NCBI GenBank assembly: GCA_949752745.1
Contig: CATKHT010000140.1
Coordinates: 16,973-80,972, forward strand
Source of the DNA: Protula sp. h YS-2021
Taxonomy: Eukaryota; Annelida; Polychaeta; Sabellida; Serpulidae
Length of the DNA stretch: 64,000 nt
Direction: 5' to 3'
Position numbers and translations under genes: made by a program. The notes below the pieces were generated by a model, which saw only the letters and a program-made list of their open reading frames with translations, was not told the DNA's origin and ran no database searches. Of this stretch, positions 1-63,690 are shown piece after piece (within the stretch, counting starts at the first letter, position 1; each line of letters starts with the position of its first letter).

Positions 1-429
1 ACTAATTTGTTGACTATCTCTCGGATTTTTAAACAGAATGATATAATGTGTATTCAAACTAATATTTCGCATCTCTTTCCCATGATGAAATAAATTATGC
101 ACAATAAAAATAATGCTTAGATTTTGATGACTGCTGCTAACACTAAAGAGACGTGTCATACGCTCATCACTATGACATTTCGTCATTAAGTCATCAATGA
201 TAAGTAAGTTTGGTTTTTTCGGGTTAAAACGCTCTTCAATGTCATCTGGAATGCCTTGGTAAAATTCCACGCCTTTCATTCCCTTGTACAAAGGCTGATC
301 TGCTGCATAAAGCCATAAAATGCTTTTTGGAGAGGGTTGAATCAACTTTTGTTCTAGAATTTCCTTCACCAGAGACGTTTTACCACTGCCTGTAGGTCCA
401 GAGACCAAACATGTAAATGGATGCTTCAT
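1..429 (-). CDS. Polinton packaging ATPase (FtsK/HerA-like), partial
   Basis: The reading frame is open from ATG at 429 to the window edge (143 residues, C-terminus missing). It has a Walker A motif GPTGSGKT at residues 11-18 and a Walker B motif NLLIIDDLM at 74-82. A segment near residues 104-125 (IIFIVHNLF, then LNTHYIILFKNPRD) is characteristic of the Polinton/adintovirus genome-packaging ATPases related to poxvirus A32. The family translocates DNA into capsids using ATP. Its start overlaps the integrase stop by four bases (ATGA), the compact spacing typical of viral genomes. The preserved motifs argue that it is, or recently was, under selection. Confidence 0.9.
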   Translation of the reverse strand, partial: MKHPFTCLVSGPTGSGKTSLVKEILEQKLIQPSPKSILWLYAADQPLYKGMKGVEFYQGIPDDIEERFNPKKPNLLIIDDLMTKCHSDERMTRLFSVSSSHQNLSIIFIVHNLFHHGKEMRNISLNTHYIILFKNPRDSQQIS

Positions 430-1526
430 TGTTGAATGTCTGTTTCTTTCACCCAACTGTTAAACTTGTTTGGCCAACCTAACCACTTGACAAATAATTC
501 TCTCACACCTCCTCGTCTTTTACGTGTTTTCAAGACTTTTTCAATTCTATACACAGATTCAATATCTTTGGTCACTTTCTGCAGTTCTTCTTCATAGAAA
601 TGGCCATCAATATCTTCGTCTAAAAAGTCTTTCACACGATACAAATGTATTCCTTGCTTCTTACAACGATGTGTGACAATGAAGACTTCTTGCGTCCATT
701 TGATGTGATAATCGCGTTGAAACACATATTTAATGTGGGAAATGCGAACATGATCGCCAATGTTAAATTTATACTTCTTCTTCTTCGGTTTCAATTTCAG
801 TTTGTCGACATACATATACTTCCATACTTTTGATTCGTTGTCTTTACGAATCTCGGCTGGAGCATATTTATTAGAAAGAGAACCATGAGGTCTATGGTTG
901 TAATTGTACACCAAGTCTGGAAGAATGTCTAAGTAACGGTAAGTTTGATTATGTAGAAAATACCGATACATCATTCCCTTCAGAGTACGAATGACTCTTT
1001 CAGCAAAGTTGGCTTTGGTTTCATTCTTTGTGGTATAAGCATGAATGCCTTCTTTCTTCAAAAATGCTTTTACCCATCTGATTTTAAATTCTGTTCCTTT
1101 ATCAGACCTTAGAGTTCGCGGTCTTCGTCGTGTGTCATGAAAAATCTTTTGGAAAGCTTGTATGACGCTGGTATGTGATTTATTAGGTATTGGCTGTACC
1201 CAGACATATTTGGAAAACACATCAATGACAATGAGTAAAAAGCGTATGTCATCATTATAGGGGGCTATGTTTCCCATATCAGCCAAATCAATATCCCACA
1301 TGTCATCAATACCACGTGTAATGACACGTTGTCTTTTGAACCTGTATTTGACAGGTTGGAGTAAACTGAAAGCATCTTGATCCTGTAGCCATTTCTTCAC
1401 TTGTGAATGTGTGACTGGTTGATTATGTTTTCGTAAGATGTGATACAGTTTGTAAGGACCAGCAAATGCTCCAGGCTGTCCAGGTTTGAAGTAAATATTG
1501 GTCAAGTAGTCTTTCCACGTCGACAT
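426..1526 (-). CDS. Polinton integrase with chromodomain
   Basis: A 366-residue rve-family integrase, which joins element ends to target DNA. The start is taken at ATG 1526 (MSTWKDYL); the open frame runs further upstream but without an ATG. An N-terminal region reading FKPGQPGAFAG is typical of Polinton integrases. The DDE triad is placed at D80 (WDIDLADM), D142 (RSDKGTEF) and E176 (NFAERVIRTLK). Residues 325-366 form a chromodomain (YRIEKVL..., FVKWLGWP...W). The length and domain order match Polinton c-integrases. No internal stop or frameshift is present, so it may be functional and could act on the non-autonomous relatives in this window, which share AG/CT ends (inference). Confidence 0.93.
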   Translation of the reverse strand: MSTWKDYLTNIYFKPGQPGAFAGPYKLYHILRKHNQPVTHSQVKKWLQDQDAFSLLQPVKYRFKRQRVITRGIDDMWDIDLADMGNIAPYNDDIRFLLIVIDVFSKYVWVQPIPNKSHTSVIQAFQKIFHDTRRRPRTLRSDKGTEFKIRWVKAFLKKEGIHAYTTKNETKANFAERVIRTLKGMMYRYFLHNQTYRYLDILPDLVYNYNHRPHGSLSNKYAPAEIRKDNESKVWKYMYVDKLKLKPKKKKYKFNIGDHVRISHIKYVFQRDYHIKWTQEVFIVTHRCKKQGIHLYRVKDFLDEDIDGHFYEEELQKVTKDIESVYRIEKVLKTRKRRGGVRELFVKWLGWPNKFNSWVKETDIQQ

Positions 1527-1653
1527 GATGAATGAAAACCACCTTCTCAACAGAACAGCTTTTATTTTATAACTCAACCAACATCACTTAACTAACATAG
1601 TAACTTAACTAACATGTATTTATAACTAACATGTATTTATAACTAACATATAT

Positions 1654-1986
1654 TTACAGATCAAGTATGGATACAATGGTATGAATCACTGGAGACCATT
1701 GGTCTTCAATGAACATTAACCAATGACTGAGTTCATCCAATGTAATAGCATCTACACCATATTTCTCACAGCGTTGATTTGCATTATCTAACACTTTATC
1801 TAAATGAATGTAATATTTAGCTTCATTCCAATATGTATAAACACATGCAGTATGACAAGTATGTTCTGAACACTCTTCATGTTGACAAGCAGGACAGACT
1901 AAATAGGCAAACTTTTTTACAGCGGATAACATTTCTTCACAATAAGCTTTTTGCACAATATATTGTCTCAGTGTCATGTCCGCCAT
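1654..1986 (-). CDS. Small cysteine-rich ORF of the Polinton, function unknown
   Basis: 110 residues from ATG 1986; the frame extends nine codons upstream without an ATG. A central cluster CPACQHEECSEHTCHTAC looks like a metal-binding knuckle. The rest is predicted mostly helical with acidic patches. I do not recognise the family. It lies 128 bases upstream of the integrase on the same strand, and the block-wise arrangement suggests it is an element gene. No copy is visible in the two decayed relatives at 5-11 kb. Confidence 0.6.
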   Translation of the reverse strand: MADMTLRQYIVQKAYCEEMLSAVKKFAYLVCPACQHEECSEHTCHTACVYTYWNEAKYYIHLDKVLDNANQRCEKYGVDAITLDELSHWLMFIEDQWSPVIHTIVSILDL

Positions 1987-2358
1987 TATGCAGTCTTGTG
2001 AGTCTTGAATCAATGCAGCACAAGTCTGTCAGGTTTAGCAAGTTATGCTGCTCCGGCAATGTAGCACAAGTCTGTCAAATTCAGCAAGTTTTTTCCAGTT
2101 GCTGTTCACTTAACACACTTCTCCATGTTCACACGTCTGCACATCAAGTCTCACACAACAAGATTCTCCATGTTGACTTTGTTTCTGTTGTTTTATTCTG
2201 ACATGTCGGTTTCTTCCTGTAATAAAATATCTTTTAATATATTTGCTGCCTCTTCTATCATGTTCTTTCTTTGTTTACGTTGAAAACACTCACATAAAAC
2301 TAAATTTGCTAGTAAGAAAAACATTGTTATCAATTCACTATGTTGTCATAAACATGTT

Positions 2359-2691
2359 TTAAAAGGTTTTTATATAACTTACTTGATAAAGCTGCTCGGT
2401 TTCCTCTTCTTCTTTACAACAATCTCTCAAATGATCCACTACGGTGAAATATACTTCAACATCAGTACGAGCAGAATAAAGTGCAGAATCAAAGTCAAAG
2501 TCAGGATCTTCTTCTATTCCAATTTTATGACATTCTCCAAGAAATCTTGAATGCAGTTCAATCACATCAAGACTATGATGTACAACATCCCAAAAAGCAT
2601 CCAAATGATAAAGTTGATAGTCTGGAGTGCCACAGCAAGCAAGTTTAGCAATCATCAAGTCAATATAAGCATTTTTAAAACATGCATCCAT
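2359..2691 (-). CDS. Small acidic ORF of the Polinton (110 aa), function unknown
   Basis: 110 residues beginning at ATG 2691. It is acidic, with an EEEE stretch near the C-terminus and a core IELHSRFLGECHKIGIEEDPDF. A decayed plus-strand homologue exists at 10674-10907 (IELHSRFIEQRYETGIEDAEDF). Conservation of this core between two diverged elements shows it is a real protein rather than a chance frame. It sits 27 bases downstream of the PC4-like gene, in the same orientation. No known domain is recognised. Confidence 0.7.
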   Translation of the reverse strand: MDACFKNAYIDLMIAKLACCGTPDYQLYHLDAFWDVVHHSLDVIELHSRFLGECHKIGIEEDPDFDFDSALYSARTDVEVYFTVVDHLRDCCKEEEETEQLYQVSYIKTF

Positions 2692-2718
2692 CTTGATTCA
2701 GTGTGTCTTGTGAGCTTT

Positions 2719-3366
2719 TTACTTTGCTTCACTGACTTTAAGTACTCCACACTTGCCGCAGAAGTTGTTTGGTTCACACAACTTGCAATTATACTTGTGG
2801 CAGTTGCAATGATAATCTTCCACATATCCACAAGCACCACAATAGTCGCAGGTAAGTCCAAGTTGATTTTGTACGTTCATGTTCTCCAACTGAACTTCAG
2901 TCAGCCTTTTCTTGGATAGCTTTGACACCTTCATCCGACCATCCTTTTGCAGCTTGATGATCGTTTTCTTGTCATGACATTCCTCACATGGTGATAGGGC
3001 TGAGTTGATGTTGTCCATCTCCTGAAGCAGTGTCTCCCATTCACCATCATTCATGTTGATGTGATGTGTGTATTCTTTCCCTTCAAACCGTGACGTGCGC
3101 ACAAAACTCACATAACGCATATCCAAGTATGAAATGACTTCAAGCCACTTCGTTTGCGTTAAGTATAGTTTGAAGCCAATGTCGCGTAAATTTTTCAAGC
3201 TCTGGCACACAATCTTCCACAAAGATGGTGAATAAGCACACCATCTCTCTCCACGTGTGATGCGTAGAAATGGCCCATATTTTCCATACTCCACAGTAAT
3301 GGTTAAGTTAGCACTAATTTTAAAGCTGCTGCTGCGCTGCGTTGTGTTGCTTGTCTTGTTTTCCAT
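2719..3366 (-). CDS. PC4-like / zinc-ribbon protein of the Polinton
   Basis: 215 residues from ATG 3366, chosen because a TATA box (TATAAAAGGG, 3442-3451) lies about 80 bases upstream. The frame itself runs further, into the TATA. Residues 24-60 and 83-118 each resemble the strand-strand-helix pattern of PC4/Sub1 single-stranded-DNA-binding domains (YGPFLRITRGERW...SPSLWKIVCQSL and RYVSFVRTSRFEG...MNDGEWETLLQEM). The C-terminus (173-206) is a cysteine/histidine-rich ribbon, CDYCGACGYVED..CNCH..CKLC..FCGKC. A decayed homologue lies at 9914-10554 on the other strand. The PC4 assignment is by eye and needs a profile search. A transcription or DNA-binding role is inferred. Confidence 0.7.
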   Translation of the reverse strand: MENKTSNTTQRSSSFKISANLTITVEYGKYGPFLRITRGERWCAYSPSLWKIVCQSLKNLRDIGFKLYLTQTKWLEVISYLDMRYVSFVRTSRFEGKEYTHHINMNDGEWETLLQEMDNINSALSPCEECHDKKTIIKLQKDGRMKVSKLSKKRLTEVQLENMNVQNQLGLTCDYCGACGYVEDYHCNCHKYNCKLCEPNNFCGKCGVLKVSEAK

Positions 3367-3441
3367 GGCTGCAACAATGTATTGATGATCCACTCCCTCA
3401 AACTGTCTGCTGAGAAATGACTTCACTCTGCTGAGTTCACT

Positions 3442-3451
3442 CCCTTTTATA
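3442..3451 (-). promoter_or_regulatory. TATA box of the PC4-like/zinc-ribbon gene
   Basis: TATAAAAGGG on the minus strand, about 75 bases before the chosen ATG at 3366. It overlaps the 3' end of the upstream ORF. The decayed homologue at 9914 has TATATAAG at a similar distance (9807-9814), which supports real promoter function. Confidence 0.65.
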
Positions 3452-3965
3452 CCCAACTGGTTGCTGAGTCAAGCTTTTCAAACTTCTTGCAAACGTTTGA
3501 ATTCACTTCAACTCGTCCATGGTTGAATCGAACAAGGTCTGATACATTCGTCGTCAATGGAACATCATCATCATAAAGTAAAATGATTCTTGCAGCTACA
3601 ACTAACATGAGCTCAACTGCCCAAATTGTATTCGCGTTGATAAATGCTGAATCAATGTCATAAGTTGATATGATAAATGTTAAATCAATGTTATAAGTTG
3701 ATAGTATATGTAGATCTTCACAGTCACGTAGAAACGAGTCGATGAAATCACTTGGAATAGTCTTTCCGACAGCTTCCCAATGCAGATGTAAATTCTTCAC
3801 TTGCTGCATCCAATCCCATTCAAAAGTAGGAAGCTTTGAAAACACATAGTTAGTATAATTCACTTTGAAGACGTCGTCCATAGTCATACATCTGTCAAGA
3901 AGTAATGCTGATATTGTGAAGTCTTTTCTCGTCACACAATGTATTACTAGTTGACTAGTTGACAT
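3447..3965 (-). CDS. Polinton ORF (172 aa), function unknown
   Basis: 172 residues from ATG 3965. An internal ATG at 3887 (MTMDDVFKVNY) is an alternative start. A TATA box at 3978-3985 lies so close to 3965 that transcription may begin downstream of the first ATG, which favours the internal start. A decayed homologue at 10938-11087 aligns across the motif DDVFxVNYTxxVFSKLPxFE. The C-terminal half is rich in Ser, Asn and hydrophobic residues. No domain is recognised. It is the outermost gene before the terminal repeat. Confidence 0.65.
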   Translation of the reverse strand: MSTSQLVIHCVTRKDFTISALLLDRCMTMDDVFKVNYTNYVFSKLPTFEWDWMQQVKNLHLHWEAVGKTIPSDFIDSFLRDCEDLHILSTYNIDLTFIISTYDIDSAFINANTIWAVELMLVVAARIILLYDDDVPLTTNVSDLVRFNHGRVEVNSNVCKKFEKLDSATSWV

Positions 3966-3977
3966 GTTTCACTCATG

Positions 3978-3985
3978 CTTTTATA
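3978..3985 (-). promoter_or_regulatory. TATA box upstream of the 172-aa Polinton ORF
   Basis: TATAAAAG on the minus strand, 13 bases before the first ATG at 3965 and about 90 before the internal ATG at 3887. The short first spacing suggests the internal start is used. Confidence 0.6.
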
Positions 3986-4093
3986 CTACTTCCATGTAAT
4001 CAAAATATGGTGTGTAACTTTGTTCAAAAATTGCTGACTCAGCAGAATTTTACTTATGTATATGAATGTCTCACTTACAGTTGTACTGCTGAG

Positions 4094-4240
4094 TTCAGAA
4101 TCGTCTGAAACGGATAAATATGCAAAAATCACAATTTCGAGGGGGGGGGGGTGGTCGACCGAAAAAATGAAAAATGTTCAGAATCGTCTGAAACGGATAA
4201 ATATTCAAAAATCACAATTTCGAGGGGGGGGGGGTCATCA
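4094..4240 (+). repeat. Two 83-bp direct repeats, each led by the 16-bp palindrome
   Basis: The palindrome TTCAGAATCGTCTGAA at 4094-4109 and 4177-4192 is followed each time by cggataaatat, a short A-rich stretch, caatttcgag and a poly-G run of about ten. The same palindrome occurs at 8497, 9570 (imperfect), 9758 and, in the complete element, near 56064 and 59287. Its position upstream of outward-facing genes suggests a regulator-binding site. Confidence 0.75.
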
Positions 4241-4319
4241 CTTTTTAGGGTCTGTTGCCATGGTTACACTGATTGACAGGTGGAGTTCGTTGACTTCATG
4301 ATGATTGACTCGGCCAACA

Positions 4320-4574
4320 CTATCAAGCAACTTTCGCTCCAGACTTTCGCTCCAGACAGTATGACCTCATTATGACGTCATCATGACGTCATTATCACGT
4401 CATGGATGGTCGCGCCTATCCTAACGCTTATCATGACTTCCGCTCCAGACAACACTTCCGCTCCAGACAACACTTCCGGTCCAGACGCTATGACGTCACT
4501 TCCAGACATGATGACGTCACTTCCAGACAGTATGACGTCACAAAGTGAGCTGAAAACGGCATTTCTACCCTACT
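4320..4574. repeat. Terminal-repeat region of the Polinton: TGACGTCA sites and cttccgctccagac repeats
   Basis: Alternating copies of a roughly 16-bp unit (acttccgctccagac and variants, about eight copies) and perfect or near-perfect TGACGTCA palindromes fill 4335-4548. The sequence then ends in TACCCTACT at 4566-4574, taken as the element terminus. Confidence 0.65.
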
Positions 4575-5331
4575 AGTCGTTGTTTGGAAACTCTTGTCAT
4601 AGGAGCAAAGAAGAAAAACATAGACATCAGAGATTCAAAGCCCCCAGCCAACGCCATTTTTGGTCGATCACACTCCAACTTTGACGTTGCACATTCTAAA
4701 TGAACATTCTTCCAAAATGTTAAATTTGAAAACGAGCCGACCACAAAAACTTATCGTTTTGGTACGTACAAAATATAGCAACCCAAATGTTAACGGACGA
4801 ATGGACAGACGGACGGACGGACTAACCTATAGCAATAGCCCTCAGCCAAAATTTGGCTGGTCGCTATAAGGAAAGGGAAATTGACAAGTTAAAAAAATTC
4901 AATATCACTGGGAATGTGCAAGACTCTCCTTTGTCAAGTACTTAAAAACATTCAACAACATAGGTGTCTTTTTTTTAGAGATGAATCTGTGTTGTTGCGC
5001 TTTGTCGTCTTTGCAATAAAAAATGAAGCAAATGTATGTAGAGTTTAAGGCATCGTAGTATATGACCCAAAACGAATATTGACATTGTTATTATCTTGAA
5101 AGTTGACCAGGCCACAGTGTAGATTGAAAGTAGGGGAAAAAAGACAGTTCTGGATAAACTGACGTCATAATGAAGTCAGATCCCCCTTGGAAACTTTTAC
5201 AATATCTATTTTAAGATGAGAAATTTTACAACATCTATTTTTAGAAATCTCCTGGAAACTTGGAAATCACAATTTTGGCGGGAAATCGAAAACCTGGATG
5301 TATAAATGGACCAGCGATAACAAATAGCAGT
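4575..5331. other. Spacer without genes, repeat-derived
   Basis: No plausible coding frame. 4790-4870 carries (gacg)n repeats followed by ctatagcaatagccc, resembling the tail of a dispersed repeat. The remainder is AT-rich with no recognisable feature. Confidence 0.4.
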
Positions 5332-5741
5332 AGTAGGGAAACGAGAGTTTTGTTTCAATCAATCATCGTGGCGCCATCAATCACGTGATCAATTAAGACA
5401 ATTAAGTAAAAAAAGCAAATTAAGCCCTACCCAATAATACTTTCTGTCTATCATCTGTCATCAATCACGTGACATCCGCCCCCTGAGTAAGGAAAAACGA
5501 AAGTTCTGGACCAATCAATCATCGTGACGTCATGAATCAAGCCCAAGTTGTAGACAGGAAGTGACAATGGTGGTAGTTGTTGTTATTGGAAGTGAAAATT
5601 TGGGTAGGTGAAATTGTTTGTTCTGTGTATTTGCTATGTCAATTTATTTTTGGTTGGTGATGTGGGAAGAGCACGCCATTCAAAGATGTGCTCGAATTGA
5701 AAGCCCATTCACAGATGTGTTCGACGTTTAGTCAGATAAGT

Positions 5742-6310
5742 CTATTTTTTTTCATCTGTTTCACTCTTTTCCACTTCACTGTCCATATCGCTTTCTTCGT
5801 GGCTATTTTCATCTTCTTCCTCCTCATCTAGAAGCTCTTCAAAGAATGCATCGTTTCTTCTTATAGCCGCCTTTAGTGCCTTAGACTACTCGCAATGTTT
5901 TTCATCAACAAAGTAATTAAAGTCTTCTAAAATGTTTTGATAATGTTTGCTTTGTTATAGACGTTGGGTATATTTGAATAGTCTCATGAACAGTTGTTTT
6001 GGTCCACGCTTATAAACGGGTCGAAAGTCATCGCTTGCTATTCCACGCCCATCTTCAAGCCCTTGTTCTTCATATTCTGAAACCTTTTCTTGACATTTGT
6101 TATCATGGTCGTCATATACTTCCTTATCTCTAACTCACTGTCAGAACTGCTGTCATCGTCACTCTCGCCACACTGCTTCATATGCGTGGATAAAGCTTCT
6201 TCGCTGTTGTATAACGCATCATTCTATACAAGCATGTGCATTAATTTCAGCCATGTTGACTCTTTGACGTTTAATAGAAGACTCATCTAACATTTCCATG
6301 AAAGGCATTT
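5742..6310 (-). pseudogene. C2H2/acidic-protein relic, minus-strand copy
   Basis: Read on the minus strand it matches most of the 244-residue protein at 56462-57196: second zinc-finger region (HAC..), acidic Ser/Glu tract, FRPVYKRG-type segment and the C-terminal AFFEELLDEEEEDEN acidic tail ending at the TAG at 5742. Several in-frame stops and frameshifts break it. Confidence 0.8.
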
Positions 6311-6339
6311 TTATGAGCTTTTTAGATCTATCTTCCATT

Positions 6340-6540
6340 CTCTCAAAACGTTTTAGAAGACTTCAATTACTTTGTTGATAAAAACATTGCGAGTATTCTT
6401 AGGCACTAAAGGCGGCTATAGCAAAAAACAATGCATTCCTTGAAGTGCTTCTAGATAAGGAGGAGGAAGATGACAGCAATGACGAAAAAACAGATACGGA
6501 CAGTGAGGTGGAACAGAGTGTAATAGATGAAGAACACTAG
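6340..6540 (+). pseudogene. C2H2/acidic-protein relic, plus-strand C-terminal fragment
   Basis: Matches only the last 55 or so residues of the 56462-57196 protein (FVDxKH..KALKAAI..NNAF, acidic tail, terminal TAG at 6540), with stops. With the preceding minus-strand copy it forms an inverted duplication centred near 6320. Confidence 0.75.
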
Positions 6541-6732
6541 ACTTATTTGACTGAGCTTTATAATATTGTTATTAATTTAAGCGAATTAAGTGCATCAATA
6601 AAACTATTAAATATATGTCTTGCTTTTTTATGCTTAAACGCAGTTTCAACGTTCTTCACATATGAAATCGCAGGAAGCTAAGGTCCTTGGCTCGGTTTTA
6701 ATTCATCCGTAAACCATAAATCATACATCATA

Positions 6733-6774
<42 letters not shown>

Positions 6775-6782
6775 TATTATAG
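6733..6782. repeat. (ATT)n microsatellite
   Basis: About 16 ATT units in the intergenic spacer between the convergent relics. The spacer up to 7500 resembles the spacer at 57500-57830 and has no gene. Confidence 0.9.
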
Positions 6783-7526
6783 ACAATTATTGTTTGAAAA
6801 AAATAGAAAGTTGAAAAGGATCATAAATTTTTTTTATTTTATTGAATATCTCAAATATTAACACTTAATGCGAACTACAATTATCATAAACACCATAGTA
6901 AAATACTGACATTTATTGAGAATAAAAGCAAAACTATTTCAAATACATATTAGCCAACTCACAAGAACTTAAACTGATATAAGTATTAAAAATGTTATCA
7001 GCCCCTTTGCAAATGTTATGAAAACTGACATAACATTGATCCAGTCCAATCAATTCCACATCAACATGGTTTGATAATATGAATTCATTTAGACTTTTCA
7101 TAGTTCACATGTTAGCAGTAAAGACAATGTTATTTGAACCACGCATCAATTGTACATGGTTATTTGGTTCAAAGCTAACTTTCAAGTTCCTGCCAAGCAT
7201 CAAAAACTTGACTCCAATATTTTGCACTGAGAGTGATGGAATCGATGTATTCGCTAAGCTCATCACACTTTTGAAACTGTATACAGTGTTCATCGTCGGG
7301 TTCAAAGACTCTCACATTAAGATGTTCTGACACTTGTAGAAGAAATCCTAATATTGATCAGAAATCAAAGCAATCCCTCACCAAGGCTTAATCTTCAGGA
7401 GATAGGATATGTGAGTTTCACAATAAGAGATTGTCAGTTCACGCAAGTGATTCAGAGATAGTTTACGTTTGAATTCATGATGATAAATGAGTTCTACTGA
7501 GCCATCCTATAACTGTTACTGCATTT

Positions 7527-8082
7527 TTACACATCTACCTGCTGAAGCACGAGATCTACTGACGTCATTTGCTGCTTCAGCATTTGCAAGTCTTTCAATG
7601 ACAACAAAATTCCCTTCCTGGTAGGATATAACCTTCCAGATGTATGATCCGTAATATATTCACGAATGTTAACCATCACTTTCAAATGATATTTGACCAA
7701 TTTAATATATGTTTTTCCATTAATGGGTATCATAACCGGTAAATCATCTACACTCATCTTCTTCTTCATGGGCTTTGTAGTGACAGCTTTACACTTAGGT
7801 TCTGGTTTGACTTTAGGCTCTACCTTACTTTTTTCGCTTTTTACACGGTGGAACGGTAGCTGGTAACTCATCTCTTTTTATCTTTCCAAATTGTGGTCGC
7901 CTTCGAAGCTGTTGTTGTGGTAGTGACTTCAATTCAGACTTTGCCATGAGCATTGCCTTACACGTTGCTGTAGGTATTGTCTCAGGCTTTGCTATAGAAT
8001 TTTCTGTAGGCATTGTCTCAGACTTTCCTGTAGGCATTACCATAGATGGTAGTTGTTGTTCAAACACTGCAGAGATGTTCAC
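7527..8082 (-). pseudogene. PC4-like protein relic (start lost, one frameshift)
   Basis: Homologous end to end to the intact 188-residue protein at 57834-58400, including SVDDLPVMIPING, the PC4-like VMVNIREYITDHTSGRLYPTRKGILLSL block and the basic PPCKKRK stretch. The initiating ATG of the intact copy is ATC here (GTG-AAC-ATC against GTG-AAC-ATG), and one frameshift near 7840-7870 separates N- and C-terminal halves. The PC4 domain half is otherwise open. Confidence 0.85.
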
Positions 8083-8379
8083 TCTTCAATTCATTAGCTA
8101 TAGATATAGAATGTTTGATATGTCTGAGGAGGGGCGCCTTTTATGTTCTATAAGTTGTGTAATGCCCAAGTGACAAGAGTTTCCAAACAACCAGACTGTC
8201 GGTAAATTTCTATTACCGAAAATAAGCAGACAAGCGAAACACCCCTTTTTTCTTAATCTATATTACATATTACGGATGCACACATGTTAGCCTGATTCAG
8301 GTTTACTTATTCTATAATGGGATGAGAAATGATTGATATGACTAAATATCATATGCCTGCTCATGAATCGAAAGAAGGG

Positions 8380-8712
8380 GAGGCCAGGTGGCCCAGTTAT
8401 CTCGTCCTTTACTTTAGGCTTGGCTCAGTTCTCTCGTCCTATGAAGTTTCCCACCAGGGGGGGAGGGGGATGGCAGGTGGTCAAAAACCAAAAATGTTCA
8501 GAATCGTCTGAAACGGAAAAAATGCAAAATTACAAAAAAAAATCCACGGGGTGAGGTGGCCAAGTTGTCTGGTCTTATACTTTATGCTTGGCTGAGTTCT
8601 CTCGTGCCAACTTCTCTCGTCCTATACTTTATGCTTGGCTAAGTTTTCTCGTGGCCCAGTGGTCTCGCCCTATACTTTATGCTTGGTTTAGTTCTCTCCT
8701 TTATTCCCTACT
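8380..8712. repeat. Terminal-repeat array: ctctcgtcctatactttatgcttggct units
   Basis: Roughly 45-bp units containing ctctcgtcctatactttatgc recur about five times. The 16-bp palindrome TTCAGAATCGTCTGAA is at 8497-8512. An inverted version of the same array lies at 9493-9720, so these are facing ends of two related elements. Confidence 0.7.
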
Positions 8713-10907: not shown

Positions 10908-10937
10908 GATTGTTTTGCAGAAGATGAAAACTGAACC

Positions 10938-11087
10938 ATGTCAGCATTTCAATCTCTTCTTCACAGATATATAGAAACATTGGATGATGTATTCCAAGTG
11001 AACTATACTGACTTTGTGTTTTCAAAGCTTCCTTATTTTGAATCTGATTGGATTCTAGAAGTAAAGAATATGCATAAATATGCATAA
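10938..11087 (+). pseudogene. Truncated homologue of the 172-aa Polinton ORF
   Basis: 49 codons with DDVFQVNYTDFVFSKLPYFESDW, matching the N-terminal part of the 3447-3965 protein before a TAA. It is last in this block, whereas its homologue is first in the element at 1-4574. Confidence 0.75.
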
Positions 11088-11095
11088 ATAACACT

Positions 11096-41802: not shown

Positions 41803-43586
<1,784 letters not shown>

Positions 43587-52960: not shown

Positions 52961-53248
52961 TACTCAGTTTCGCCAGAGGACGAGTGTTCGGTGAATGAAA
53001 ATATGAAGATCCGTAGACTAAGTCATCGTTGGATTGCTATTTCTCCTTCATCAAAGGCTGTATAGGGGCAAACAACGGTAGAGAAGGCAGTTGTATCTCA
53101 GTTGGCGATTTTGGTTTCGTTGTGACAATTGTTGTTGGGGCAGCAGTAAGACGCTGCGGTCCCCTTCTTTGACGCAAGTAAATTTCTCTGGACGCACAAA
53201 GCAACGTATCCAGATGCAAATTCCAACTTATAGCGAACCTCTTTAAAG

Positions 53249-53254
53249 GTGCGA
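53249..53254. repeat. 6-bp target site duplication, left (GTGCGA)
   Basis: GTGCGA directly precedes AGTAGGGAG. The identical hexamer follows the right end at 62119-62124. Six-bp duplications are diagnostic for Polintons. Confidence 0.93.
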
Positions 53255-53369
53255 AGTAGGGAGAAAACGGGGGTTTGAAAACAGGAAGTGACGTCATAGT
53301 GACGTCACGTGGTGTTTTCAAACCCCCACGGGGGTTTGAAAACAGTGACGTCATAATGACGTCACTATG

Positions 53370-53640
53370 GGGAAAACCCGATCGATAAATTTTAGAGTGC
53401 ACTCGTACAGAGTGTGGGGAAAACCCGATCGATAAATTTCAGAGTGCACTCGTACAGAGTGTGGGGGAAAACCCGATCGATAAATTTCAGAGTGCACTCG
53501 TACAGAGTGTGGGGAAAACCCGATCGATAAATTTCAGAGTGCACTCGTACAGAGTGTGGGGGAAAACCCGATCGATAAATTTCAGAGTGCACTCGTACAG
53601 AGTGTGGGGGAAAACCGATCGATAAATGTTAGAGTGCACT
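53370..53640. repeat. 46-bp tandem array (aacccgatcgataaattt / gagtgcactcgtacagagtg)
   Basis: About six units. More diverged units recur at 54940-55180. The mirror array is at 61720-62010. Chance frames over it are not genes. Confidence 0.95.
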
Positions 53641-53847
53641 CGTTCAGAGCGGTGGAACGATCAATAAATTTGAGAAGGAATGGGATTTTCAGCAGGATAA
53701 AAGTGTGGCTCCGAAAACAGGAAGTGACGTCATAATGACGTCACGAGGTGTTTTCGGAGCCCCATGGGGCTCCGAAAACAGTGACGTGATTGTTTTCGAA
53801 TTCGCATGGGTATTTTGAAACAGGTAATCGAAAAAGCGCGCGCCCGT

Positions 53848-54040
53848 TCAATGACGTCATAATGACGTCATCATGCCGTTATAATGACGTCATCATGATG
53901 ACGTTATGACGTCATCATAACGTTATAATGACGTCATCATCATGACGTCATAATGACGTCATCATGACGTTATAATGACGTCATCATCATGACGTTATAA
54001 TGACGTCATCATGACGTTATCATGACGTCATCATGATGTT
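53848..54040. promoter_or_regulatory. Array of consensus CRE sites (TGACGTCA), left arm
   Basis: About ten perfect TGACGTCA palindromes in under 200 bp, alternating with TGACGTTA variants at a spacing of about 10-20 bp. TGACGTCA is the high-affinity site of CREB/ATF bZIP factors. The mirror array is at about 61335-61530. Confidence 0.85.
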
Positions 54041-54210
54041 ATGGCATATTAAGACAGTTCTAAGCAGGATAACCCTAAGTCGCCTGTCAATCATCATGAC
54101 GTCATTAGTCACGTGACCTGTCAATTATCATTGGTCACATGACCTGTCAATCATGTGTGATGTGATTCCAACCGCATATGAGGAATATTTTCCTGCTGAT
54201 TAACCTTCTG

Positions 54211-54295
54211 GCCTGAATGGCTCAGTTGGTAGAGCAGAGTACCCGTAAGCGGACCCATGATCTGAAGGTCGGTGGATCGAACCCGCCCTCGGGCA
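54211..54295 (+). ncRNA. tRNA-like module 1 (left arm)
   Basis: 85 bp. Acceptor stem GCCTGAA/CTCGGGC (one mismatch plus a G-T pair), D arm GCTC...GAGC perfect, A-box TGGCTCAGTTGG, T arm GGTGG-ATCGAAC-CCGCC, B-box-like GGATCGAACCC. The region between the D and T arms is about 12 nt longer than canonical and forms no clear anticodon stem. It is therefore a tRNA pseudogene, an intron-bearing tRNA, or a structural mimic. A mirror copy lies at 61078-61162. Confidence 0.65.
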
Positions 54296-54301
54296 TAACT
54301 T

Positions 54302-54530
54302 TCATATCATGGGTCCTCCCCCCAGGATCAAGACATGACATGAATCGAACCCCCCCCCCCGGACCAAGACATGACATGTATCGGACCCCCCCCCCCGGAC
54401 CAAGACATGACATGTATCGGACCCCCCCCCCGGACCAAGACATGACATGTATCGGCCCCCCCCCCAGGACCAAGACATGACATGTATCGGACCCCCCCCC
54501 CCCGGACCAAGACATGGCATGTATCGGACA
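54302..54530. repeat. C-rich tandem array (accaagacatgacatgtatcgg + poly-C)
   Basis: Six units of about 40 bp, each with accaagacatgacatg and a C run of 8-12. The mirror array is at 60843-61070, with different C-run lengths. Confidence 0.95.
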
Positions 54531-54619
54531 TAGTCATATAGCTCTATGACTATGTAATTGCTATGTGAACATAATTAGTTTCAAGTATGTATGTCATTAT
54601 CAGATCGTTCAACAGTCAA

Positions 54620-54692
54620 GCCGCGATAGCTCACTTGGCAGAACAAACGGCTAGCAACCTGAGAGTCCCGGGATCGATACCACATCGGGGCA
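54620..54692 (+). ncRNA. tRNA-like module 2 (left arm)
   Basis: 73 bp, the canonical tRNA length. Acceptor GCCGCGA/TCGGGGC (6 of 7 pairs), A-box TAGCTCACTTGG, anticodon-loop position CTAGCAA (would read AGC), B-box-like GGGATCGATACC. A T-run shortly downstream (54697 onward) suits Pol III termination. The anticodon and T stems are poorly paired, so it is probably a decayed or mimic tRNA. The mirror copy is at 60681-60753. Confidence 0.6.
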
Positions 54693-54797
54693 AACTTTTT
54701 TTTGGTTTTTTTTGTTCACTTTTATGACTCTGTGACATTATGTGACAACATGTGACTGTGACATCATGTGACTCTGTGACATTATGTGACTGTGACT

Positions 54798-54799
<2 letters not shown>

Positions 54800-54834
<35 letters not shown>
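54800..54834. repeat. Poly-T tract of about 34 bases
   Basis: Preceded by short tgtgactgtgacat repeats. It is mirrored by the poly-A tract at about 60531-60570. Confidence 0.95.
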
Positions 54835-54838
<4 letters not shown>

Positions 54839-55239
54839 ATAATGGCTATATTTCTATGTCTATTTTCACTATTATTATGATAATATTTAATTAGTCATAT
54901 TTCAATGGTTCTAACCACACAGCATAGGAATAAGTACATGTGTACAGAGTGTGGGGAAACCGATCAATAAATTTTAGAGTGCACTCGTTCAGAGTGTGGA
55001 GGAAACCGATCGATAAAATTTCAGAGTGCACTCGTTCAGACCGTGGGAACGATCGATAAATTTGAAAACATCAAAGGCCTAGACCGTGGGAACGATCGAT
55101 AAATTTGAAAACATCAAAGGCCTAGACCGTGGGAACGATCACTAAATTTCAGAGTGCACTAATTCAGAGCGTGGGAACGATCAATAAATTTGAGAAGGAA
55201 TGGGATTTTCCACAACTCTATGTTTTATGTTATAGTAGT

Positions 55240-56050
55240 TGGAAAATGACACTTCTAAAGCACATTTAACAAATGTGGGTTTTTATAACATATAATATAT
55301 AAAATAAGTTTGAACATTTTAGCATGCTACTTATTTAAATGTTCTAAAGTTATAGTAGTGGAAAAATGATGGTTCTAGACCAACTTTAACAAATTTAGTT
55401 TTTAACACCATATGATATATAAAATAAGTTTGAACATTTTAGCATGCTACTTATTTGAATATTCTAAAGTCATAGTAGTGGAAAAATGATGGTTCTAGAC
55501 CAACTTTAACAAATTTTGTTTTTTGACAAAATATGATGCATAAAATAAGTTTGAACATTTTACCATGGTGTAGTAGGGTAAAAATAAGGGTTCTAGACCA
55601 ACTTTAACAAATTTAGTTTTTAACATCATATGATATATAAAATAAGTTTGAACATTTTAGCATGCTACTTATTTGAATGTTCTAAAGTCATAGTAGTGGA
55701 AAAATGATGGTTCTAGACCAACTTTAACAAATTTTGTTTTTTGACAAAATATGATGCATAAAATAAGTTTGAACATTTTACCATGGTGTAGTAGGGTAAA
55801 AATAAGGGTTCTAGACCAACTTTAACAAATTTAGTTTTTAACACCATATGATATATAAAATAAGTTTGAACATTTTAGCATGCTACTTATTTGAATGTTA
55901 TAAAGTCATAGTAGTGGAAAATGGTGGTTCTAGACCAATTTTAACAAATTTTGTTTTTTGACAAAATATGATGTATAAAATAAGTTTGAACATTTTACCA
56001 TGGTGTAGTAGGGTAAAAATCAGGGTTCTAAACCAACTTTAACAAATTTT
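55240..56050. repeat. About 115-bp tandem array
   Basis: Seven to eight units containing ttctagaccaactttaacaa, aaaataagtttgaacatttt and either gcatgctacttattt or ccatggtgtagtagggtaaa, so two subtypes alternate. Mirrored at about 59310-60140. Confidence 0.93.
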
Positions 56051-56063
56051 GTTTTTGACACGT

Positions 56064-56078
56064 TTCAGACGATTCTAC
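56064..56078. promoter_or_regulatory. 16-bp palindrome, left arm copy
   Basis: TTCAGACGATTCT..., the reverse complement of AGAATCGTCTGAA, with the outermost bases changed in this copy. It is shared with the Polinton elements at 4094, 4177, 8497, 9570 and 9758. The mirror copy is at about 59287-59302. Confidence 0.7.
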
Positions 56079-56254
56079 CACTTGGTTGGTTGTTGGAAAA
56101 TGGGAAGTGAAAATGTGGATAGTTATGTAGGAAAACTGCGCCCATTCAAAAGACGTGTTCGAATGGCAAGCCCATTCAAAACACGTGTTCGAATGGCAAG
56201 CCCATTCAAAACACGTGTTCGAATAATTTTTTGCAAGATATTACGTCGTGGTAT

Positions 56255-56400
56255 TGTTCATCAAATTGTTCAACATGTTCAACAACATGTTCAACATGTT
56301 CAACAACATGTTCAACATGTTCAACAACATGTTCAACATGTTCAACAAGTTGTTCAACATGTTGTTGTTCAACATGTTGTTCAACATGTTCAACATGTTG
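56255..56400. repeat. caacatgttcaa tandem array, left arm
   Basis: 9- and 12-bp units with the palindrome AACATGTT, ending directly at the TATA box. The right arm has the same array expanded to about 480 bp (58617-59098). It is a variable region of the terminal repeat. Confidence 0.95.
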
Positions 56401-56409
56401 TATATAAAG
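56401..56409 (+). promoter_or_regulatory. TATA box of the two-finger gene
   Basis: TATATAAAG, 53 bases before the ATG at 56462. A mirrored copy is at 58608-58616 in the right arm. Confidence 0.75.
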
Positions 56410-56461
56410 CTATGTTTAAAGACTTTCTCATCATTTGAATAGTGTAGGTTGAACCGAAAGG

Positions 56462-57196
56462 ATGTATACATGCAACATTTGTTCGAAATCTTACAATTGG
56501 CCGCAAAGTCTTAAAAGACACTTAAAGGTTGCTCACGCTTCAGAAATGGATGAAGAATCGGATATGGAAAACTCTGTAAAACTACCTTTCACGGAAACTT
56601 TAGATGAGTCTTCTATGGAAAGTCAAAGCGTCAACATAGCTGAAAAGAATGCACATGCTTGTACAGAATGTGGTGCATTGTACAACAGCGAAGAAGCTTT
56701 GCTCAAACATATGGAGCAGTGTGGTGAGGATGCTGATGACAGGAGTTCTGAAAGTGAGTCAGAAACAGACTCTGAAAGTGAGTCAGAAATAGACTCTGTT
56801 TGGCATGATATGGTTCAAGACGTCTACGATGACTATGATAACATATTTCAAGAAAAGGTTTCAGAATATGAAGAACAAGGACTTGAAGATGCGCATGAAA
56901 TAGCAAGTTATAACCTTCGACCCATTTATAAGCATGGACTAAAACAACTGTTTATGAGACTGTTCAACTATACCCAGCGTCTACAACAGAGCAAACATTA
57001 TCAAAAGATTTTAGAGGACTTTAATTACTTTGTTGATGAAAAACATTATAAGTATTCAAAGGCATTAAAGGCGGCTATAAGGAAAAACAATGCATTCTTT
57101 GAAGAGCTACTAGAAATGGAGGAGGAGGAGGATGGTAGCAGTGATGAAGAAAGTGGCATGGACAGTGAACAAAGTGAAACAGATGCAGAAAAATAG
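56462..57196 (+). CDS. Two-finger acidic protein of the non-autonomous Polinton
   Basis: 244 residues. Finger 1 is a classical C2H2 (C4, C7, H20, H25). Finger 2 is C2HC (C67, C70, H83, C87). A Ser/Glu/Asp-rich linker (about 88-110) leads to a helical region (about 115-205: DVYDDYDNIFQEKVSEYEEQG, YNLRPIYKHGLKQLFMRLFNY, KILEDFNYFVDEKHYKYSKALKAAI) and an acidic tail. It is probably a nuclear DNA-binding or transcription-related protein. The helical C-terminus with FQEKV...LRPIY...LK recalls a widespread but uncharacterised invertebrate C2H2 family. Decayed homologues lie at 5742-6310 and 6340-6540. The first 15 codons belong to the terminal inverted repeat. Confidence 0.85.
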   Translation: MYTCNICSKSYNWPQSLKRHLKVAHASEMDEESDMENSVKLPFTETLDESSMESQSVNIAEKNAHACTECGALYNSEEALLKHMEQCGEDADDRSSESESETDSESESEIDSVWHDMVQDVYDDYDNIFQEKVSEYEEQGLEDAHEIASYNLRPIYKHGLKQLFMRLFNYTQRLQQSKHYQKILEDFNYFVDEKHYKYSKALKAAIRKNNAFFEELLEMEEEEDGSSDEESGMDSEQSETDAEK

Positions 57197-57833
57197 ACTT
57201 ATTTGACTAAACTTTATAATAAAGACTTTATAAATGTAATATTTTATTAACTTAAGCGTTGTGTAATATATGTCTTGCTTTGCAACATATAAAGTTGTAA
57301 GGTTCCTGACACGGTTTTAATTGACCCGTAAACCATATATCATATATTGGGTATTATAGTTAATTTTGTATTATTATGTATTATATTCAAGAATTGTATT
57401 ATTATGTATTATATTCAAGTATTGTTTTATTATGTATTATATCCAAGTATTGTTTTATTATGTATTATATCCAAGTATTGTATGAGAAAAATAAAAAGTT
57501 GAAAAGCATCATATGTGTTTTTATTGAACATTACAAATATGTACAATTATAATAAAAACAAGACTATTTCAAATACATATTATGTTAATACATGTGCAGA
57601 AGAACTTAACTTAATATTTTATAACAACTGACTTCACATGAACATAGATAAAGTTAATTTCATAGTCTACATATGAAGACAATTTAATTTGAACTACATA
57701 TCAAATGTACATGTCCATATGAGTCAAAGCTAAGTTCTTGTCAAGCTTCAAAACCATCGCACTGAGGGTGATGAAATCATAGCATCCACTACGCTCGTCA
57801 TGCTGTTAAAACTGTATACAGTCATCTCGCTGT
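57197..57833. other. Intergenic spacer between convergent genes
   Basis: Contains a roughly 28-bp repeat (gtattgttttattatgtattatatccaa type, 57350-57485). AATAAA-like signals near both gene ends. No other gene is recognised. Confidence 0.6.
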
Positions 57834-58400
57834 CTACTCATCCACCTTCTGACAGTCACTGCATTTATACAGATCCATTTTCTGAAGCATGAGATCCACT
57901 GACGTCATTTGCTTCTTCAACATGTACCAGTCGTTCAATGACAACAAAATTCCCTTCTTGGTAGGATGTAACCTCCCAGATGTATGATCCGTAATATATT
58001 CACGAATGTTAACCATCACTTTCTGTTGATATTTCGCCAATTTAATATATATGTCTCCATTAATAGGTATCATAACCGGTAAATCATCTACACTCTTCTT
58101 CTTCATGGTGGTAGCAGCTTTACGCTCTGGTTTTCGCTTCATTTTAGGCTCTGTCTTAATTTTTCGCTTTTTACACGGCGGCGTCATAGCTGGTAGCTCA
58201 TCTTTTTTTATCTTTCTAAGATGTGGTCGCTTTTGACGCTGCTGACGTGACTTCGCCTTAGACTTTACCATGGGCATTGCCTTAGACTTTGCTGTAGGTA
58301 TTGTCTCAGGCTTTACTATAAAATTTTCTGCAGGCATTGTCTCATAATGTTCTACAGGCGTTGTCATAGATCGTAGCTGTTGTTCGCTCACTAGAGACAT
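57834..58400 (-). CDS. PC4/Sub1-like ssDNA-binding protein of the non-autonomous Polinton
   Basis: 188 residues from ATG 58400. Residues about 113-170 match the PC4 (Sub1, p15) C-terminal domain: a strand segment (MIPINGDIYIKL), the core VMVNIREYITDHTSGRLHPTKKGI and the closing helix LLSLNDWYMLKKQM. Compare the PC4 pattern of hhDIREYW...G...P..KGISL..eqW..L. The N-terminal half is Met/Pro/Lys repeats (MP.E, KPETIPTAKSKAMPM) and strongly basic with PPCKKRKIK, a likely nuclear signal. The C-terminus has a CSDC pair. PC4 proteins bind melted DNA and act in transcription, replication and repair. A TATA box lies at 58454-58462. A decayed homologue is at 7527-8082. Confidence 0.85.
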   Translation of the reverse strand: MSLVSEQQLRSMTTPVEHYETMPAENFIVKPETIPTAKSKAMPMVKSKAKSRQQRQKRPHLRKIKKDELPAMTPPCKKRKIKTEPKMKRKPERKAATTMKKKSVDDLPVMIPINGDIYIKLAKYQQKVMVNIREYITDHTSGRLHPTKKGILLSLNDWYMLKKQMTSVDLMLQKMDLYKCSDCQKVDE

Positions 58401-58453
58401 GTTCACTCTTCAGTATCTTGATACAGAATGTGTGTTATGTCTGAGGGTGGCAG

Positions 58454-58462
58454 CCTTTTATA
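58454..58462 (-). promoter_or_regulatory. TATA box of the PC4-like gene
   Basis: TATAAAAGG on the minus strand, 54 bases before the ATG at 58400. The decayed element has CATAAAAGG at the same place. Confidence 0.75.
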
Positions 58463-58517
58463 CTTTATAGTTGTCTTAACATGTTTAGAAATAGCTTTAC
58501 CGCATGTAACTTTGAGC

Positions 58518-58556
58518 CTAGTTGTAAGATTTCGAACAAATGTTGCACTTATACAT
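58518..58556 (-). pseudogene. Start fragment of the two-finger gene in the right arm
   Basis: Minus-strand MYKCNICSKSYN then TAG: the first 12 codons of the 56462 gene, with one change and a stop. It is driven by a mirrored TATA box (58608-58616). It marks the inner end of the inverted repeat. Confidence 0.9.
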
Positions 58557-58616
58557 CCTTTCGGTTCAACCTACACTATTCAAATGACGAGAAAGTCTTT
58601 AAACATAGCTTTATAT

Positions 58617-59098
58617 ACAACTTGTTGAACAACAACATGTTGAACTTGTTGAACATGTTGAACATGTTGTTGAACATGTTGAACATGTTGTTGAACATGT
58701 TGTTGAACATGTTGAACATGTTGTTGAACATGTTGTTGAACATGTTGTTGAACATGTTGAGCCTGTTGAACATGTTGAACATGTTGTTGAACATGTTGTT
58801 GAACATGTTGAACATGTTGTTGAACATGTTGAACATGTTGTTGAACATGTTGTTGAACATGTTGAACATGTTGTTGAACATGTTGTTGAACATGTTGTTG
58901 AACATGTTGAGCCTGTTGAACATGTTGAACATGTTGTTGAACATGTTGTTGAACATGTTGAACATGTTGAACATGTTGAACATGTTGTTGAACATGTTGT
59001 TAAACATGTTGAACATGTTGAACATGATGAACATGTTGAACATGTTGTTGAACATGTTGAACATGTTGTTGAACATGTTGTTGAACATGTTGAACAAT
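58617..59098. repeat. Expanded ttgaacatg / ttgttgaacatg array, right arm
   Basis: About 45 copies of 9- and 12-bp units with a higher-order repeat marked by gagcctgttgaac (near 58756 and 58909). Long chance frames exist in three frames on both strands because the units are multiples of three. Confidence 0.97.
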
Positions 59099-60524
59099 TT
59101 GATGAACAATACCACGACGTAATATCTTGCAAAAAATTATTCGAACACGTGTTTTGAATGGGCTTGCCATTCGAACACGTGTTTTGAATGGGCTTGCCAT
59201 TCGAACACGTCTTTTGAATGGGCGCAGTTTTCCTACATAACTATCCACATTTTCACTTCCCATTTTCCAACAACCAACCAAGTGGTAGAATCGTCTGAAA
59301 CGTGTCAAAAACAAAATTTGTTAAAGTTGGTTTAGAACCCTGATTTTTACCCTACTACACCATGGTAAAATGTTCAAACTTATTTTATACATCATATTTT
59401 GTCAAAAAACAAAATTTGTTAAAATTGGTCTAGAACCACCATTTTCCACTACTATGACTTTATAACATTCAAATAAGTAGCATGCTAAAATGTTCAAACT
59501 TATTTTATATATCATATGGTGTTAAAAACTAAATTTGTTAAAGTTGGTCTAGAACCCTTATTTTTACCCTACTACACCATGGTAAAATGTTCAAACTTAT
59601 TTTATGCATCATATTTTGTCAAAAAACAAAATTTGTTAAAGTTGGTCTAGAACCATCATTTTTCCACTACTATGACTTTAGAACATTCAAATAAGTAGCA
59701 TGCTAAAATGTTCAAACTTATTTTATATATCATATGATGTTAAAAACTAAATTTGTTAAAGTTGGTCTAGAACCCTTATTTTTACCCTACTACACCATGG
59801 TAAAATGTTCAAACTTATTTTATGCATCATATTTTGTCAAAAAACAAAATTTGTTAAAGTTGGTCTAGAACCATCATTTTTCCACTACTATGACTTTAGA
59901 ATATTCAAATAAGTAGCATGCTAAAATGTTCAAACTTATTTTATATATCATATGGTGTTAAAAACTAAATTTGTTAAAGTTGGTCTAGAACCATCATTTT
60001 TCCACTACTATAACTTTAGAACATTTAAATAAGTAGCATGCTAAAATGTTCAAACTTATTTTATATATTATATGTTATAAAAACCCACATTTGTTAAATG
60101 TGCTTTAGAAGTGTCATTTTCCAACTACTATAACATAAAACATAGAGTTGTGGAAAATCCCATTCCTTCTCAAATTTATTGATCGTTCCCACGCTCTGAA
60201 TTAGTGCACTCTGAAATTTAGTGATCGTTCCCACGGTCTAGGCCTTTGATGTTTTCAAATTTATCGATCGTTCCCACGGTCTAGGCCTTTGATGTTTTCA
60301 AATTTATCGATCGTTCCCACGGTCTGAACGAGTGCACTCTGAAATTTTATCGATCGGTTTCCTCCACACTCTGAACGAGTGCACTCTAAAATTTATTGAT
60401 CGGTTTCCCCACACTCTGTACACATGTACTTATTCCTATGCTGTGTGGTTAGAACCATTGAAATATGACTAATTAAATATTATCATAATAATAGTGAAAA
60501 TAGACATAGAAATATAGCCATTAT

Positions 60525-60572
<48 letters not shown>

Positions 60573-60680
60573 AGTCACAGTCACATAATGTCACAGAGTC
60601 ACATGATGTCACAGTCACATGTTGTCACATAATGTCACAGAGTCATAAAAGTGAACAAAAAAAACCAAAAAAAAGTTTGC

Positions 60681-60753
60681 CCCGATGTGGTATCGATCCC
60701 GGGACTCTCAGGTTGCTAGCCGTTTGTTCTGCCAAGTGAGCTATCGCGGCTTG
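60681..60753 (-). ncRNA. tRNA-like module 2 (right arm)
   Basis: Mirror copy of 54620-54692 on the minus strand, apparently identical, with its T-run downstream. Confidence 0.6.
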
Positions 60754-61077
60754 ACTGTTGAACGATCTGATAATGACATACATACTTGAAACTAATTATG
60801 TTCACATAGCAATTACATAGTCATAGAGCTATATGACTATGTCCGATACATGCCATGTCTTGGTCCGGGGGGGGGGGGGTCCGATACATGTCATGTCTTG
60901 GTCCTGGGGGGGGGCCGATACATGTCATGTCTTGGTCCGGGGGGGGGGGTCCGATACATGTCATGTCTTGGTCCGGGGGGGGGGGTCCGATACATGTCAT
61001 GTCTTGGTCCGGGGGGGGGGGGGGTTCGATTCATGTCATGTCTTGATCCTGGGGGGAGGACCCATGATATGAAAGTT

Positions 61078-61162
61078 ATGCCCGAGGGCGGGTTCGATCC
61101 ACCGACCTTCAGATCATGGGTCCGCTTACGGGTACTCTGCTCTACCAACTGAGCCATTCAGG
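61078..61162 (-). ncRNA. tRNA-like module 1 (right arm)
   Basis: Mirror copy of 54211-54295 on the minus strand, apparently identical. Confidence 0.65.
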
Positions 61163-61334
61163 CCAGAAGGTTAATCAGCAGGAAAATATTTCTCATATGC
61201 GGTTGGAATCACATCACACATGATTGACAGGTCATGTGACCAATGATGATTGACAGGTCACGTGACTAATGACGTCATGATGATTGACAGGCGACTTAGG
61301 GTTATCCTGCTTAGAACTGTCTTAATATGCCATA

Positions 61335-61530
61335 ACATCATGATGACGTCATGATAACGTCATGATGACGTCATTATAACGTCATGATGATGACGTCATT
61401 ATAACGTCATGATGACGTCATTATGACGTCATGATGATGACGTCATTATAACGTTATGATGACGTCATAACGTCATCATGATGACGTCATTATAACGGCA
61501 TGATGACGTCATTATGACGTCATTGAACGG
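61335..61530. promoter_or_regulatory. Array of consensus CRE sites (TGACGTCA), right arm
   Basis: Mirror of the left-arm array, again about ten perfect TGACGTCA palindromes. Confidence 0.85.
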
Positions 61531-62118
61531 GCGCGCGCTTTTTCGATTACCTGTTTCAAAATACCCATGCGAATTCGAAAACAATCACGTCACTGTTTTC
61601 GGAGCCCCATGGGGCTCCGAAAACACCTCGTGACGTCATTATGACGTCACTTCCTGTTTTCGGAGCCACACTTTTATCCTGCTGAAAATCCCATTCCTTC
61701 TCAAATTTATTGATCGTTCCACCGCTCTGAACGAGTGCACTCTAACATTTATCGATCGGTTTTCCCCCCACACTCTGTACGAGTGCACTCTGAAATTTAT
61801 CGATCGGGTTTTCCCCCCACACTCTGTACGAGTGCACTCTGAAATTTATCGATCGGGTTTTCCCCACACTCTGTACGAGTGCACTCTGAAATTTATCGAT
61901 CGGGTTTTCCCCCACACTCTGTACGAGTGCACTCTGAAATTTATCGATCGGGTTTTCCCCACACTCTGTACGAGTGCACTCTAAAATTTATCGATCGGGT
62001 TTTCCCCACAGTGACGTCATTATGACGTCACTGTTTTCAAACCCCCGTGGGGGTTTGAAAACACCACGTGACGTCACTATGTCACTTCCTGTTTTCAAAC
62101 CCCCGTTTTCTCCCTACT

Positions 62119-62124
62119 GTGCGA
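62119..62124. repeat. 6-bp target site duplication, right (GTGCGA)
   Basis: Directly follows ...TCCCTACT; identical to 53249-53254. Confidence 0.93.

Positions 62125-63690
<1,566 letters not shown>

Follow-up and report, generated by a model that had tools for sequence, protein, structure and literature searches.

The window analysed here is a stretch of 64,000 nucleotides from the serpulid annelid Protula sp. h YS-2021 (positions 16973-80972 of contig C149, the genome comprising 863 Mb in 218 contigs), and at positions 53255-62118 it contains a complete element which probably belongs to a family of Polinton satellites with many, mostly young copies, bringing cis signals and two genes of its own and mobilised in trans. 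Movement in trans, without mobility genes of the element's own, had been proposed in an earlier note on this DNA; although we infer it from sequence comparisons, it is well supported by the gene content of the copies and by the ends that they have in common with an integrase-bearing Polinton on the same contig.

Structure and gene content of the element

The element is bounded by AGTAGGG and CCCTACT ends, and it was located where the earlier note had placed a complete element with a GTGCGA duplication, AG/CT ends and giant inverted arms. Ends of the form AG...CT are the rule for Polintons.

53249..53254: left target-site duplication, GTGCGA, a perfect 6-bp match with the right side
62119..62124: right target-site duplication, GTGCGA
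53255..56508, + strand: left arm of the giant inverted repeat, 3.25 kb (gapped arm comparison)
62118-58510, - strand: right arm of the giant inverted repeat, 3.61 kb (gapped arm comparison)
54211..54295, + strand: tRNA-like segment of the left arm (RF00005, 31.6 bits against a cut-off of 29)
61079..61163, - strand: tRNA-like segment of the right arm, just above the Rfam cut-off

Roughly three quarters of the element consists of the arms. When aligned with gaps they differ from each other by three substitutions, plus insertions and deletions, up to position 56291, and only their inner 122 bp (56387-56508 against 58631-58510) fall to 93% identity. The main difference in arm length is accounted for by a repeat with units of 9 and 12 bp (GTTCAACAT type), found at 56265-56400 and at 58616-59100 and thus very unequal in length between the arms. 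ARAGORN makes no tRNA call for the tRNA-like segments of either arm; a second tRNA-like stretch was seen by eye at 54620-54695.

Thirteen open reading frames (ORFs) of at least 80 amino acids (aa) are present in 53000-62400, and just two of them lie in the unique core, the rest being in the arms or flanks. These two are convergent and encode a zinc-finger protein (ZnF) and a PC4-domain protein, so that the ORFs and Pfam together confirm the earlier description of a core with only a two-finger acidic protein and a PC4-like protein. In both genes a TATA-like box can be recognised by eye 5' of the ATG.

56462..57196, + strand: ZnF gene, 244 aa, two C2H2 fingers and an acidic helical domain
57834..58400, - strand: PC4-domain gene, 188 aa (PF02229, E 3.9e-11, above the cut-off)

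The C2H2 fingers are recognised by Pfam (zf-C2H2, E 2.5e-7), and the PC4 domain, which lies at the end of the 188-aa protein, matches solved PC4 structures in the PDB (E 9e-7). A search with the ZnF protein of the window alone gave one match, whereas a two-row alignment gave 24, of which 23 came from ENA and sit on contigs no longer than 3,022 bases, where gene context is not visible. These 24 relatives share 32-38% identity with the ZnF of the window and their helical part is conserved, while the first finger is partly or wholly missing in six of them. It is very improbable that ZnF is itself a recombinase and the element autonomous. ZnF is one of just two genes, and its Pfam listing does include a very weak match to rva_4, an integrase core (E 0.14, 12.2 bits against a cut-off of 26, residues 103-162); this match is, however, far under the cut-off and falls in a region predicted to be all-helical, and no other recombinase or nuclease match was prominent in Pfam, Foldseek or VIA-align, the fold results for the helical domain being ambiguous.

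Copies across the genome

The first 346 bases of the element have at least 177 matches in the genome, with 40 of 1,687 candidates scored. The 24 loci fetched, the window copy included, are every one with a match above 100 bits among the matches listed. Complete copies between perfect 6-bp duplications were found at 21 of these 24 loci, all 21 duplications being different; twenty of the copies measure 7.6-8.9 kb and one, split by a long interspersed nuclear element (LINE), measures 14.3 kb. The other three loci are incomplete within the fetched stretch, L027 and L028 having one end each and L034 one end together with a second, broken ZnF copy (L034:6630-7357), perhaps a composite or nested insertion.

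Giant, near-identical inverted arms are also what an assembly fold-back, as the earlier note had pointed out, or a collapsed palindrome would produce. This explanation is refuted by the independent copies and retains virtually no weight, because the 21 insertions are independent and carry different duplications; the arms, moreover, contain copy-specific differences.

Both genes were found in 24/24 loci, some of them broken. The ZnF frame is intact over its 244 aa in 22 loci and PC4 is full length in 21, the failures of PC4 being L019/L020, through a LINE insertion, and L029 and L033, the loci with the most diverged genes. L019/L020 is a single satellite copy, and the LINE inside its PC4 gene has endonuclease- and reverse-transcriptase-like ORFs.

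A helper Polinton with the same ends

The right part of an integrase-bearing Polinton, referred to here as the helper, lies at the beginning of the window.

1..4574, - strand: integrase-bearing Polinton, right part (the whole is C149:5380-21546, 16,167 bp)
4575..4580: right target-site duplication of the helper, AGTCGT, present on both sides
426..1577, - strand: helper integrase (rve E 7e-10, chromodomain E 8e-8)
1..459, - strand: helper ATPase, running off the window (P-loop; PHROG ATPase E 3e-5)

The helper further encodes a PolB (PF03175, E 4e-13) and a probable protease of the adenovirus type (Peptidase_C5, E 3.5e-4, 20.7 bits, just below the cut-off of 21.3). A genome-wide search for its integrase, with 9,016 candidates at first look, scored 107 copies, all of them 97-100% identical and 106 without stops, and the genome therefore holds an abundant and recently multiplied source of integrase.

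Thirteen helper proteins or pieces were compared with the 24 satellite loci by tblastn and none gave a match at E 1e-3, neither the rve integrase of the neighbouring Polinton nor the three PolB pieces, the protease or the ATPase fragment, while all 13 recover their own source. The earlier note had considered that integrase or capsid genes might have been deleted in this copy alone; this was not seen, and the two-gene core is common to all 24 loci.

The search for integrase-bearing elements with the termini of the satellite, which the earlier note had recommended, succeeded with this helper. The signals concerned are the following.

53255..53296, + strand: end syntax of the window copy, left side, with AGTAGGG at base 1 and the first TGACGTCA at bases 35-42
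53289..54104: array of TGACGTCA, a palindrome like the cAMP response element (CRE), 17 copies
56061..56076, + strand: CGTTTCAGACGATTCT, common with the integrase Polinton, upstream of ZnF
59287..59302, - strand: CGTTTCAGACGATTCT in the right arm, upstream of PC4

Each of the 45 satellite ends inspected starts with AGTAG, and in 44 of them the first TGACGTCA is at base 35, the exception being the right end of the window copy, with base 43. Both features recur at 5/5 helper ends, two of them belonging to the C149 copy and the other three lying upstream of the integrase copies L035, L036 and L037, one for each copy; the stretch of L038 stopped short of the helper end and is not counted. Within the first 24 bases, 14-19 positions agree between four helper and six satellite ends, and the sequence between the anchors varies. 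The 17 copies of TGACGTCA in 866 bp (53255-54120) compare with at most one in 300 dinucleotide shuffles. The window contains the 16-base motif CGTTTCAGACGATTCT five times, always within Polinton-type DNA; in helper and satellite alike, the 11-base core of the motif is directed toward the first gene. Judged by these signals, the satellite shares its termini with an apparently autonomous Polinton of the same genome.

The helper has a PC4 gene of its own (PF02229, E 3e-6), 41% identical over 86 aa to the satellite PC4. It is found with several small adjoining ORFs at L026:2534-3902, which look PC4-like by eye and are not recognised by Pfam; the ORF at L026:3501-3902 is related to window positions 2722-3456 (E 8e-10).

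Arm homogenisation and chimaeric copies

The outer arms within a copy differ by 0-4 substitutions per approximately 1000 bases in 15 copies. Among the diverged copies, the two outer arms of L022 differ at 4 of 989 positions, those of L031 at 9 of 953, those of L032 at 2 of 893 and those of L033 at 3 of 914, and the nearest other compared copy of each of these four is 18 to 25 differences away. In L012 and L013, outer arms of type I on both sides (98-100% like the window) are combined with inner arms of type II (90-93%) and a type II core, with the switch of type where the 218-bp repeats lie; L012 is the more mosaic of the two, and its tRNA-like segment resembles type II. In these two copies the end seems to have been exchanged once and then copied to the other side.

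At its inner end the right arm repeats the ZnF promoter and the first 16 or so codons, with an identity to ZnF of 88% in type I copies and about 98% in type II copies; the founding event was thus probably a copying of the end beside ZnF onto the side of PC4. From the biology of linear, protein-primed genomes, copying by snap-back or panhandle in the course of replication would account for this, and the homogenised arms and two-sided chimaeras may be read as traces of terminal copying in replication.

An old relic of the gene pair

5332..8712: old relic with ZnF and PC4 and AGTAGGG/CCCTACT ends

The earlier note had regarded this relic as evidence that the design of the element is old and repeated. 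Both genes and the same ends are indeed present, PC4 with 81% DNA identity, but no long inverted arms were found in 5332-8712, ZnF is an inverted duplication (77% DNA identity, with part of the second copy at 69%) and the hexamers on its two sides differ (AGCAGT and ATTACA). On this comparison the relic attests the age of the gene pair and not that of the giant-arm design.

Selection on the genes and points against the satellite reading

That the two genes are kept for function, as the earlier note supposed, holds for ZnF and is not clear for PC4. Comparison of ZnF with the relic gives an omega of 0.33 (38 synonymous and 63 non-synonymous changes; Fisher p 1e-6), by which constraint on ZnF is shown and its long use supported. 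The picture for PC4 is mixed: omega is 0.89 against the relic (p 0.67) and 0.64 to 1.25, depending on the pair, between the two types (for example 7 synonymous and 27 non-synonymous changes), and in the one pair between types for which the PC4 domain was tested, 1 synonymous change stands against 12 non-synonymous ones (p 0.47). PC4 is thus not clearly constrained, and relaxed constraint and conflict-driven change would fit alike.

These PC4 values are a ground for regarding the element as an ordinary non-autonomous derivative, with two genes that are hitch-hiking leftovers and cis ends that alone matter. The same may be said from ZnF among young copies, where omega is 0.48-0.96 where defined (0 in one pair) on few changes, and from the broken genes of L029 and L033, whose genes are the most diverged. 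Such leftovers are, however, difficult to reconcile with the ZnF value against the relic, with the survival of the gene pair in 24/24 loci as well as in a relic of about 20% divergence, with PC4 omegas of 0.16 and 0.32 in two pairs within type II (on few changes, other pairs being without synonymous change), or with a family of 25 ZnF proteins whose other members keep 32-38% identity to that of the window, and we consider this alternative rather unlikely.

Besides PC4, several other observations weigh against a family of trans-mobilised satellites served by the helper described here. The satellite ends were chosen by similarity to the window end, and their shared spacing therefore reflects common descent and is not independent support; it is the comparison of helper with satellite that provides the informative, independent test of the end rule. 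In L029 the arms are not homogenised, with 33 differences over 402 aligned bases. The helper showed no recognisable capsid gene, and the helper copy that was read closely may be inactive, because its PolB contains a stop with the same frame on either side and its PC4 ORF ends within the domain. Between the satellite arms and the left end region of the helper no homology was found beyond short repeats and motifs, so the helper family seen is not a recent parent, and neither blastn of the element nor tblastn of L025 and L026 nor a comparison of ORF products (best E 0.03) detected ZnF in that helper.

The last two points, together with ZnF relatives on other contigs whose context is not visible, would also suit another, unseen autonomous Polinton equipped with both ZnF and PC4, from which all 24 loci would have arisen by deletion. 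As the same two-gene core is present in 24/24 loci, the deletion would then have to be ancestral, and the ends follow the syntax of the abundant helper; such a parent is in our judgement rather improbable.

Other features of the window

A second helper-type Polinton relic lies at 9806-11090, with broken ORFs which by eye resemble those of 2359-3965 in the opposite orientation, and the CAGACGATTCT motif occurs beside it at 9573 and 9760. Two similar Mab-21-type genes, at 41281-42927 (Pfam) and 48109-49227 (by eye, interrupted), flank LINE-like ORFs.

Discussion

To our knowledge, the replication and integration of animal Polintons have hardly been observed. In the mechanism that we favour, the satellite would bring the cis signals of a Polinton, namely the end sequence, the TGACGTCA array at fixed spacing and a promoter-proximal motif. 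The terminal protein and PolB of the helper would copy the linear satellite from its ends, one arm being copied onto the other by panhandle or snap-back repair during replication, which would keep the 3-kb arms identical and spread an exchanged end to both sides, and the helper integrase would then insert the copied satellite. ZnF may bind the arm repeats or the promoter motifs and PC4 may act as a single-strand-binding protein and transcription cofactor, by which the satellite would favour its own expression or replication. Packaging, like these roles of the two proteins, is something we infer.

Animal Polintons are considered virus-like, and a bolder proposal, which we regard as doubtful, would make the element a genuine satellite virus with an animal Polinton as its helper. 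The helper would in that case replicate, package and perhaps spread it between individuals, and ZnF and PC4 would redirect helper replication or transcription to the satellite arms, PC4 being a diverged relative of a helper regulator and in conflict with it.

Terminal repeats and 5-6 bp duplications are hallmarks of Polintons (PMC12220804). The satellite resembles Polinton/Maverick elements in its 6-bp duplication, inverted repeats, AG...CT ends and the end syntax of an integrase/PolB Polinton, but no integrase, PolB, ATPase or protease was found in it, the arms occupy most of its length and ZnF and PC4 are its sole genes. Miniature inverted-repeat transposable elements (MITEs) and other non-autonomous DNA transposons likewise have only cis ends for mobility and rely on a helper in trans, whereas in the satellite two full genes are retained and the 3-kb arms of any one copy are kept alike. 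Linear protein-primed viruses of the adenovirus type have defective-interfering and satellite genomes that offer a parallel in terminal repeats enlarged by end-onto-end copying and in helper dependence, the difference being that the satellite is a genome-inserted, multi-copy family for which no virion is known. Transpovirons and virophages are also small DNA elements depending on a larger DNA virus, but the helper here would be a Polinton. The novelty lies in a family of Polinton satellites that keep genes, have a readable end rule and probable replication traces, and come with a candidate helper known by its ends.

One genome thus holds both helper and satellite, with more than 100 open integrase genes and at least 21 complete two-gene insertions. 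The satellite would provide a small natural substrate with a precise end rule (AGTAG, then TGACGTCA at base 35) for testing recognition by Polinton proteins, and its PC4 and new C2H2 family are a lead to the regulatory genes in these elements.

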